From assembly GCF_003337435.1 (NCBI RefSeq), contig NZ_QPJS01000001.1, positions 264,513 to 328,512 on the forward strand: 64,000 nt of DNA, written 5' to 3'. The notes under the pieces were generated by a model. The model saw only the letters and a list, made by a program, of their open reading frames with translations, did not search any database and had not been told where the DNA came from. Below, in pieces: positions 11,719 to 53,663 of this stretch (the stretch's first letter is position 1; each line of letters starts with the position of its first letter). This DNA comes from Schleiferia thermophila (GTDB lineage Bacteria; Bacteroidota; Bacteroidia; Flavobacteriales; Schleiferiaceae). The translations under genes and the position numbers were made by a program.

Positions 11719-12585
11719 ATGAGGCAACTAAAAATTACAAAACAAGTAACCAACCGCGAAACCGCATCCCTGGATAAATACCTCCAGGAAATCGGCAAAG
11801 TAGAGCTCATCACTGCCGAACAGGAAGTAGAACTCGCTCAGCGCATCAAAGCCGGAGACCAAAAAGCCCTCGAACAACTCACCAAGGCAAACCTCCGCTT
11901 TGTGGTCTCCGTGGCAAAACAATACCAAAACCAAGGGCTAACCCTACCAGACCTAATCAACGAAGGCAACCTCGGCCTCATTAAAGCCGCACAACGCTTC
12001 GATGAAACACGCGGCTTTAAATTCATCTCCTACGCTGTCTGGTGGATCCGTCAATCCATCCTTCAGGCACTGGCCGAGCAAAGCCGCATTGTAAGGCTGC
12101 CACTCAACAAAATAGGCTCCATAAACAAAATCAACAAAGCTTACGCCCAGCTCGAACAAGAGCACGAACGCGCCCCATCCGCCGAAGAAATTGCCAACCT
12201 ACTCGACATGTCCGAAGAAGACGTAAAAGAAAGCCTCAAAAACAGCGGCCGACACGTCTCCATGGACGCACCACTCGTAGAAGGCGAAGACTCAAACCTC
12301 TACGACGTACTCAGTTACGGCGAAAGTCCAAACCCCGAAGACGACCTCCTCCACGAATCACTACGCATCGAAATCGAGCGCGCACTTTCCACCCTCACCC
12401 CCCGCGAAGCCGACGTAATCCGGCTCTTCTTCGGCCTAAACGGACAGCATCCTCTCACCCTCGAGGAAATCGGCGATAAATTTGACCTTACCCGCGAGCG
12501 CGTTCGCCAAATCAAAGAGAAAGCCATCCGCCGGCTCAAACACACCTCCAGAAGCCGCATTCTCAAATCATACCTCGGAAGCTAA
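11719..12585 (+). CDS. rpoD: Primary RNA polymerase sigma factor (RpoD/SigA, Bacteroidota type)
   Basis: The ATG at 11719 ([14 protein letters not shown]) is chosen over the in-frame TTG six bases upstream because it matches the conserved N-terminus of the family. The 288-residue protein lacks region 1.1 and the long non-conserved insert of E. coli RpoD. It keeps region 1.2 ([16 protein letters not shown]), regions 2.1-2.4 ([44 protein letters not shown]), region 3 and the region 4 helix-turn-helix ([17 protein letters not shown]). This is the sigma that reads the TTTG/TAnnTTTG promoters seen throughout the window. The codons are strikingly C-ended. A strong terminator follows. Confidence 0.97.
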
Positions 12586-12608
12586 AACCCATACAAAATC
12601 CAACTCAG

Positions 12609-12635
12609 CCACCCCTTCAGGGGTGGTTTTTTTTT
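12609..12635 (+). terminator. Rho-independent terminator of rpoD
   Basis: CCACCCC (12609-12615), loop TTCA, GGGGTGG (12620-12626), then nine T residues. It is a strong terminator. The GC-rich repeat element begins directly after the T run. Confidence 0.92.
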
Positions 12636-12755
12636 GGGGGCGTGTCCCCGCGCGCCGGCCATAAGGCCTTACCGCGCGGGGTCGGGCTGCTCCAGGGTCC
12701 GCTTCGCTCCCGTGCTGCGCACCGCCCTGCGGGCGCCTTCCGCATCCCTCACGCA
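12636..12755 (+). repeat. GC-rich intergenic repeat element (GGGCGTG...CACGC type)
   Basis: About 120 bp of very GC-rich sequence lies between the rpoD terminator and the AT-rich GH31 promoter. It opens with GGGGGCGTG and closes with CATCCCTCACGC, so its outer ends are complementary (GCGTG/CACGC). CCCCGCGCG (12646-12654) pairs with CGCGCGGGG (12673-12681) around an inner GGCC-ATAA-GGCC hairpin. TCGGGCTGCTCC follows, then a second hairpin CGCCC-TGC-GGGCG. From memory, intergenic elements of the form GGGCGT..CCCC..GGGG.CGGGCT...ATCCCT.ACGC recur in many Bacteroidota genomes. Their function is not known to me. No reading frame in it looks coding. Confidence 0.65.
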
Positions 12756-12827
12756 AACAAACAGCAAGCAACATTGATAAATAAAACATCCTTACACATT
12801 GCCAAAAGGTGTATAAAATACACTAAC

Positions 12828-46030: not shown

Positions 46031-46206
46031 ATGCGCCAGGGCGGAGGCGGATATGAGCTGCAGCGGGCGGGCCAGTGGCTCACGGGCGAGGAGGCGGAGC
46101 GGCAGCAAGCCACCGCAGCCCGATGTGCCACGCCCGATCCGCAAAGGGAATAGGAGCCGTAGACCGACCCCCGGCCGCGCCTTCATGCGGCCGGGGGGGC
46201 GCCCAA
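46031..46206 (-). repeat. GC-rich intergenic repeat, copy A (minus orientation)
   Basis: On the minus strand this ~176 bp element reads TTTGGGCGCC... to ...CTGGCGCATT and aligns along its whole length with 53484-53663. The stem CCCCCGGCCGC/GCGGCCGGGGG (46168-46178 and 46187-46197) is identical to copy B, while the 8-base loop differs. A 33-base block from CGGGCGTGGCACATCGGGCT onward is identical in both copies. It lies between the DUF4294 gene (12 bp from its stop) and the flippase promoter region. The open frames across it are by-products of high GC. Confidence 0.85.
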
Positions 46207-53483: not shown

Positions 53484-53663
53484 TTTGGGCGCCTCCCCCG
53501 GCCGCTTTTAACGGCGGCCGGGGGCCGGTCTGCGGCTCCTACTCACCTTGCAGAGCGGGCGTGGCACATCGGGCTGCGGTGGCTTGCTACCGCTCCGCCT
53601 CCTCGCCCCTGTGCCACAAAGCCCGCCGGCTGCGGCTCATATCCGCCTCCGCCCTGGCGCATT
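53484..53663 (+). repeat. GC-rich intergenic repeat, copy B (plus orientation)
   Basis: This ~180 bp element starts TTTGGGCGCC and ends CTGGCGCATTT, inverted relative to copy A at 46031-46206. The stem is 53495-53505 with 53514-53524 (11 bp, perfect), loop TTTTAACG. A second potential hairpin, GCGGT-ggcttgct-ACCGC, has its A replaced by G in copy A, which keeps a G-U pair. It begins 61 bp after the dehydrogenase stop, behind a T run at 53469-53476. Confidence 0.85.

Follow-up and report, generated by a model that had tools for sequence, protein, structure and literature searches.

A GC-rich element behind rpoD of Schleiferia thermophila is best explained as a copy of a dispersed mobile repeat in a folding superfamily that includes Rfam Flavo-1

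Among the closest described systems is Flavo-1 (Rfam RF01705), which the table of Weinberg 2010 (PMC2864571) lists in Bacteroidetes as a probable RNA ('y') and as not cis-regulatory ('n'). Similarly, a 2022 review (PMC9029176) places Flavo-1 among the most abundant bacterial sRNA families and leaves its function blank. In F. psychrophilum, Flavo-1 matches are described in part of PMC9723704 as lying indistinctly sense or antisense to transcribed regions, many of them outside such regions, and these data argue against a consistent Flavo-1 transcript. Among the open-licence papers listed by searches on this family, no title or abstract opening presents Flavo-1 or RF01705 as a mobile or repeated element. 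REP/RAYT repeats are defined, in an excerpt of PMC3733652, by a 20-40 nt palindrome that has a GTAG or CGTC tag next to it. On plasmids, CUP-1 to CUP-4 are placed at the 5' ends of same-direction operons of an IncN regulon (Delver and Belogurov 1997, as cited in PMC5371602), and are also described as carrying promoter and ArdK sites. Single-strand promoters and initiation sites (Frpo/ssi) are likewise known from plasmid leading regions (PMC11541004, in excerpt).

The DNA analysed here (the window) is a stretch of 64,000 nucleotides of the S. thermophila genome (2.6 Mb, 99.83% complete). Behind rpoD it carries a GC-rich element at positions 12638-12754 of the plus strand, a member of a subfamily designated C. 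The element is written as T-tract|GGGCG...CACGC, and its probable folding strand is the complement. Related copies from a strict pattern or from covariance model R1 are called Flavo-1-type; they come mostly from one family, f3, which is presumably flavobacterial, since Rfam Flavo-1 matches f3 copies. R1 was built from 19 Flavo-1-type copies, with seven of odd length or left end excluded, and a second model, R2, from 28 C copies of the own genome; the near-duplicates L014 and L028 were excluded from alignment A5. The features of the window are as follows.

12609-12635, plus strand: intrinsic terminator of rpoD with a T9 run at its end, putatively the insertion target; the element starts 2 bases behind it.
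12638-12754, plus strand: whole element, subfamily C (R2, 122 bits, this copy being in the training set of R2; R1, 20 bits; sequence).
12640-12644, plus strand: P1 5' arm GCGTG, pairs with 12750-12754 and covaries across copies.
12646-12654, plus strand: P2 5' arm; the apex is hypervariable among copies, with pairing mostly kept.
12673-12681, plus strand: P2 3' arm, partner of 12646-12654.
12684-12690, plus strand: P3 5' base GGG-C-TGC, pairs with 12742-12748; A.G mismatch on the minus strand.
12742-12748, plus strand: P3 3' base GCA-T-CCC, pairs with 12684-12690.
12750-12754, plus strand: P1 3' arm CACGC, pairs with 12640-12644 and covaries across copies.
46033-46204, minus strand: copy A, subfamily B, BLAST family match (L049).
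53487-53660, plus strand: copy B, subfamily B, BLAST family match.

A preliminary description of this DNA had reported GGGCGTG at one end (12638-12644), CACGC at the other (12750-12754), a C-rich/G-rich stem with a nested hairpin (12646-12654 with 12673-12681) and TCGGGCTGCTCC (12682-12693) behind that stem; all of these are present, and TCGGGCTGCTCC sits inside the element as the start of arm P3. The placement directly behind the rpoD terminator is also correct, and the limits of 12636 and 12755 were off by at most 2 bases. The right-end 11-mer ATCCCTCACGC occurs 35 times in the genome, against once for a reversed control, and R2 finds 41 subfamily C matches there, four of them divergent or cut; the element is therefore far from chance. 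When the 330 nt downstream of rpoD were compared by eye in 22 relatives, no such element was seen, and most had a terminator.

Comparison of the copies shows a three-way-junction fold of P1, P2 and P3 with covariation, the usual ends being GGGCG and CNNCGC. In subfamilies C and B alike, a T-tract is followed by GGGCG, the terminal stem P1, the variable hairpin P2, CGGGCT or CGGTCT and the long arm P3, and behind P3 by CCCT and the 3' arm of P1, so that the right end usually reads CNNCGC. All 30 C and 25 B copies first extracted begin with GGGCG (the C copies having been chosen by their right end), and a GGCCG left end occurs among later copies (L276). C copies terminate in CACGC and B copies in GGCGC (in one case TGCGC), with few exceptions among later copies. 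Directly behind CACGC, four own copies (L006, L008, L015 and L021) carry a further G/C-rich inverted repeat, for example GCCGGAGG...CCTCCGGC. P1 takes many forms, including GCGTG/CACGC, GCGTT/AACGC, GCGTA/TACGC, GCATG/CATGC, GTGTG/CACAC and GCGCC/GGCGC, and further GCGCA/TGCGC, GCGGC/GCCGC, GGGTG/CACCC, CCGTG/CACGG, GCGTC/GACGC and GCGAA/TTCGC. Similarly, the base of P3 covaries in relatives (TG/CA, TA/TA, TT/AA).

In an alignment of 19 Flavo-1-type copies (16 from f3), made from sequence only and with the structure predicted from the same alignment, 96.2% of cells are paired and 9 of 21 pairs have double changes. Its covariation score was reached by none of 500 shuffles, the count of further pair types did not exceed that of shuffles (208/500), and pairing fell to 36-56% when partners were slid as a control. 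For 55 distinct copies the values are 98.1% and 15 of 21 pairs, figures that lean towards structure because this alignment was fitted to the model. Subfamily C alone has double changes in 7 of 38 pairs. The fold energy of the window copy is unremarkable relative to shuffles (z -1.62 on the plus strand and -0.97 on the minus strand), and the structure is supported by covariation instead.

Support for a folding superfamily is good. The preliminary description had suggested that this genome contains divergent subfamilies of a single superfamily, and copies from the sister genus g141 (L233, L236, L237 and L242) support this, in that they hold a B core within a GGGCGTG...TCGGGCTA...TATCCCTCACGC frame of the C kind. 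Subfamily B, with 26 BLAST matches in the own genome (one partial, beside masked bases), is joined through these sister-genus intermediates only, because both R1 and R2 miss B copies. The preliminary description would have been refuted if the model of one subfamily had failed to find another and similar elements had been absent elsewhere in Bacteroidota. This did not happen, but detection between subfamilies is weak: R1 finds the window element as its sole match in the window (20 bits, E 0.019), and R2, given 18 Flavo-1-type copies, places 8 of them exactly (E 0.017-0.8) and misses 10. R1 has no match in the own genome at E 0.001. Further R2 relatives, preselected by a pattern of the C core, are in Shiella aurantiaca, a Chitinophagales MAG, a Flammeovirgaceae MAG and Moheibacter sediminis; three more matches to that pattern, from Streptomyces, Brachybacterium and a Clostridia MAG, are apparently due to chance. 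B-like sequence outside the own genome was found only in G296 and G314 among 60 genomes searched. The expectation of similar elements across Bacteroidota agrees with the distribution: the strict pattern finds the family in 44 of 296 Bacteroidota genomes (a control pattern, in 5 genomes), and R1 finds it in 57 of 395 genomes.

At its gathering score (42 bits), RF01705 matches 7 of 15 related loci, each match covering P3 and lying on the complement of the orientation used here. It has no match for the window, and none at E<=10 in 12580-12800 or at six other C/B loci. Rfam Flavo-1 belongs to the family, with an RF01705 model that covers P3 alone and misses the GC-rich copies. Flavo-1 and the window family have in common the P3 stem with covarying pairs, and R2 reaches 8 of the 18 Flavo-1-type copies; RF01705, in contrast, is without P1 and P2 and is described as RNA. 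The earlier statement that no function is assigned stands, although the relatives do have a name, Rfam Flavo-1. At another locus (L075 1357-1456), a long inverted repeat with GTCATTTCGAGGAACGAGAAATC arms gives a false mir-548 match, and similar arms occur in other spacers.

Several comparisons bear on which strand folds. The consensus fold is better on the minus strand in both C (-56.5 versus -44.7 on plus) and B (-88.7 versus -83.6), and C has 18 G.U cells on minus and 2 on plus, B 17 and 1; both structures are minus-derived, and the cells tally related copies rather than independent events. The B helices shared with a plus-derived structure have the same, minus, direction of wobble; over the whole plus-derived B structure, G.U cells are 42 on plus versus 13 on minus, with a single invariant column accounting for 25 of the 42. 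The Flavo-1-type set has 53 on plus versus 5 on minus, 52 of the 53 at two adjacent columns beside a possible bulge, and its consensus fold is slightly better on plus (-13.7 versus -11.7). GGA-type purine internal loops are on the minus strand. That the folding strand is the minus strand, the one Rfam used for Flavo-1, is supported, though not settled. A replication-strand bias was also considered; one-strand runs in G371 and G198 were suggestive, but sampling of the GC-skew arms gave no sign of it: across three single-contig chromosomes, strand and GC-skew arm were not linked (pooled 17/17 versus 18/13, p 0.62; 65 matches including partial ones, arms set by eye, G398 with its unclear arms excluded), and dnaA was not found in these chromosome samples. 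The missing link counts against a lagging-strand function, because such a function predicts one.

Copies have evidently moved in recent times. A comparison of 36 C copies showed L014, L028 and L279 to be identical (127/127) and L016 and L026 to differ from them by 1-2 bases, and the ungapped flank identity of these near-identical pairs is 24-40%. A gapped search of 38 copies showed that L014 and L028 share their right flank (88 nt at 98%) and found five other short flank matches; local duplication may thus account for at least one pair. On these sequences, recent dispersal to unrelated sites marks the element as a mobile repeat. In the sampled Bacteroidota chromosomes, copies also strongly prefer the position immediately 3' of a T-tract. 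T content in the 15 bases left of the element is 0.59 in own C (n=41), 0.57 in own B (n=25), 0.75 in sister (n=16) and 0.55 in Flavo-1-type copies (n=45), against 0.26, 0.20, 0.26 and 0.38, respectively, at -60 to -20. The T-tract varies from copy to copy and is thus read as part of the target. No target duplication was seen by eye in the flanks, and the terminal stem is just 5 bp.

Related loci suggest turnover as well. For the element locus of G398, 18 related genomes were searched, of which 12 had both anchors, 5 lacked one and 1 was left out (L229 and five other loci were excluded from the locus comparison). R1 finds an element in 3 of the 12, once in the same orientation, once inverted and once elsewhere in the spacer; a precise empty site was not obtained, the spacers around the element being unalignable. 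In a hand-picked rather than sampled comparison of orthologues, L155 and L204 keep the ends and the place and have exchanged the inner P2/P3 subtype, and in L196 and L211, relative to L203, the interior subtype is replaced and P1 has changed from GCGTG/CACGC to GTGTG/CACAC. Such subtype exchange at orthologous loci would reflect either gene conversion or repeated insertion.

The search for a parent transposase covered Y1 and RVT_1. A link to a Y1 (RAYT) transposase had been raised in the preliminary description, and a cognate Y1 gene flanked by the repeat was found in neither the own nor the related genomes. The own genome has one Y1 gene, in the flanks of which lies another palindrome, AACGATTAAAATCGTT. 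At this locus (L057, C1:429118-432459), the transposase ORF has a YIKNQKQHH motif and stands amid AACGATTAAAATCGTT palindromes; a third-type element, GGGCGCATCCCG...CGGGCTATCCGCT...ATCCCTAACG, lies about 160 nt behind the ORF (L057 2023-2103), its right end runs into a AACGATTAAAATCGTT-type palindrome, and R1 misses it. Across 30 Y1 loci, R1 finds no element beyond one partial match of 23.6 bits, which is not proof because R1 also misses the third-type element. In 8 of 36 genomes, drawn from the 44 with pattern matches, Y1 has no match at E 0.001. Y1/RAYT was accordingly rejected as the mover, given the other palindromes around the own Y1 and the pattern genomes without Y1. Several unrelated palindromes, e.g. 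GCACGGATTGCAAATCCGCGC and AATCCCTAACGGGATT, flank the Y1 genes of relatives (L110, L112, L113, L095, L106); the ATCCCTAACG motifs beside those of L095 and L106 belong to a different palindrome, AATCCCTAACGGGATT. REP/RAYT (TnpA-REP) repeats are likewise short intergenic folding repeats in many copies, but are 20-40 nt long, whereas the present element is about 75-175 nt and no cognate Y1 gene was found for it; in the copies read by eye, no GTAG or CGTC tag next to a 20-40 nt palindrome was noticed. Overall, neither a resident Y1 transposase nor a resident reverse transcriptase is likely to be the moving enzyme. Two short motifs were also considered: the promoter -7 motif, which we take to be TAnnTTTG, does not fit the T-W-W-TTT-G flank at the left end by eye, and AAGCGG, presumably the primosome n' site, is present on the minus strand of some Flavo-1-type copies and absent from C.

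Relatives on plasmids and viral contigs were reached via the conserved-end pattern, so part of their model score is selected for; a direct DNA search from the window element reached no proteobacterial plasmid and one Hymenobacter plasmid only. The scan of viral contigs with this pattern gave at least 120 stretches. Among the 80 viral matches listed, R1 supports a full element at the pattern place in 20 (E <5e-4), and some of the other 60 have weaker R1 matches (E 0.001-0.08). The nucleotide that follows CGGGCT pairs with the one preceding ATCCCT in 18 of the 20 R1-positive matches versus 21 of the 60 others, and the less telling P1 check gives 16/17 versus 8/10 where a left end was found, both checks being among the matches listed and partly what R1 selects for. 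Four viral contigs hold inverted pairs of elements with left ends outward (L307 1944-2289, L339 1289-1619, L314 10862-11425 and L349 310-847). These pairs overlap both ends of short ORFs of 128-216 aa with seemingly unrelated middles; the ORFs have no PHROG match at E 0.01, and the left ends of the pairs lack a T-tract. For one viral copy (L335) there are 734 matching plasmid records at E 0.001, 257 of them over most of its length and mostly from Proteobacteria, and no matching phage record. Additionally, Flavo-1-type copies are on gut Bacteroidales plasmids (Phocaeicola massiliensis, Bacteroides ovatus) and on one unverified phage record, MT837256.1.

R1 finds four copies on p5E34 (IncN), three on pALIDE201, two on pRK1-4, three on pACP3.3, two on a Herbaspirillum plasmid, three on a Pandoraea plasmid and one on a Massilia plasmid. 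On four of these plasmids R2 adds seven copies of a second type (GCGAA/TTCGC, CGGGCTGCTCCAGG; E 0.006-0.03), a type beyond the reach of the end pattern. Six plasmids, five of them typed as conjugative, carry more than one copy, and in the stretches read (18-50 kb of each) the copies of a plasmid always share a strand (24 of 24); the plasmids were hand-picked, with one Pandoraea place outside the view, and four have a common replicon type, leaving about three independent groups. P1 has 5/5 pairs in 22 of the 24 copies and 4/5 in 2. The copies follow the direction of mobF in all four stretches that hold mobF, and sit around ssb, DUF932, DUF3560 and radC genes. We take this region, in records where oriT is unannotated, to be the leading region, and the folded strand to be the T-strand. 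The fold of one IncN copy is not better than that of shuffled sequences, whichever strand is used, and Rfam has nothing at E 0.5 on two of the plasmids. The four p5E34 copies, on one strand before mobF in the stretch read, recall the CUP repeats of IncN; the likeness is one of position and description. Similarly, Frpo/ssi are described, in the excerpted source, as a folded single strand in the leading region, on one strand and upstream of the ssb operon, and this also describes the plasmid relatives. That likeness too is one of description: one-strand placement in a presumed plasmid leading region is seen in the plasmid relatives only (24/24, six plasmids), whereas the chromosomal copies have no matching orientation.

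The element is best explained as one copy of a mobile repeat that is short, non-coding and dispersed and forms one branch of the superfamily to which Rfam Flavo-1 also belongs. We infer a mechanism as folded single-stranded DNA: the folded strand would be recognised when exposed, as a conjugative T-strand, a lagging-strand template or an excised single strand, by a DNA-processing or transcribing machine, and might serve as a single-strand initiation or promoter site, as a transposition end, or as both. A single-strand DNA site is the simplest reading because the structure is kept (by selection or by gene conversion), one strand seems to matter, the plasmid copies are one-stranded and the copies have spread. 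That the element works in this way, and not as a conventional sRNA, is nevertheless held tentatively, at a little short of an even chance. Much of the same evidence would suit a purely selfish, MITE-like repeat whose fold is a transposase recognition end, in single- or double-stranded DNA, with no function for host or plasmid: recent identical copies at unrelated sites, a T-tract target, the inverted pairs that bound short viral ORFs, and turnover at the locus. This is unlikely on balance, though it deserves weight. A parent transposase was not seen, the sole own Y1 being flanked by other palindromes; the 30 Y1 loci gave no strong R1 match (the third-type element being likewise missed), and 8 of the 36 pattern genomes have no Y1 match. 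Nor was a target duplication seen by eye, and one-strand placement on plasmids is unexpected for a neutral repeat.

The covarying structure, the minus-strand G.U wobble in C and B and the GGA-type purine loops of the minus strand are what a family of trans-acting small RNA genes would show, as Rfam and the reviews list Flavo-1, yet 41 + 26 matches in one genome, some copies directly behind the terminators of other genes, and the F. psychrophilum matches that are sense or antisense alike and often untranscribed (PMC9723704, in part) make it improbable. An element of the 3'-UTR or boundary of the upstream gene, acting on mRNA end stability or as a transcription barrier, would explain why 19 of the 30 C copies and 20 of the 25 B copies in the own genome start 9-191 nt past the stop of a co-directional ORF (simple ORF caller). 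The 54 Flavo-1-type loci have no such strand bias, however (upstream ORF plus in 29, minus in 25), the own-genome bias may stem from T-tracts behind genes, and most relatives read have the terminator behind rpoD without the element, so this role is very improbable. Slighter still is the chance of a retroposon-like origin by target-primed reverse transcription, with the T-tract priming on an A-tailed minus-strand RNA: the minus strand does run into an A-rich tract and the left end lies on a T-tract, but RVT_1, present in 11 of the 18 genomes searched, has no match in the other 7, which include G126, with its 52 pattern matches, and the own genome, where zero RVT_1 matches led to rejection of a reverse transcriptase as the mover.

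Flavo-1, the GC-rich repeats of this genome, the viral inverted pairs and the repeats in the presumed leading regions of IncN and related conjugative plasmids could form one cross-phylum class of folding single-stranded DNA elements, acting as early start sites on plasmids and as mobile repeats in Bacteroidota chromosomes; such a class is possible but doubtful. If Flavo-1 is one arm of a mobile, strand-specific DNA element, its annotation as an sRNA misleads in many genomes, and the link to early plasmid transfer, if true, would be a direct route to testing what the fold does.
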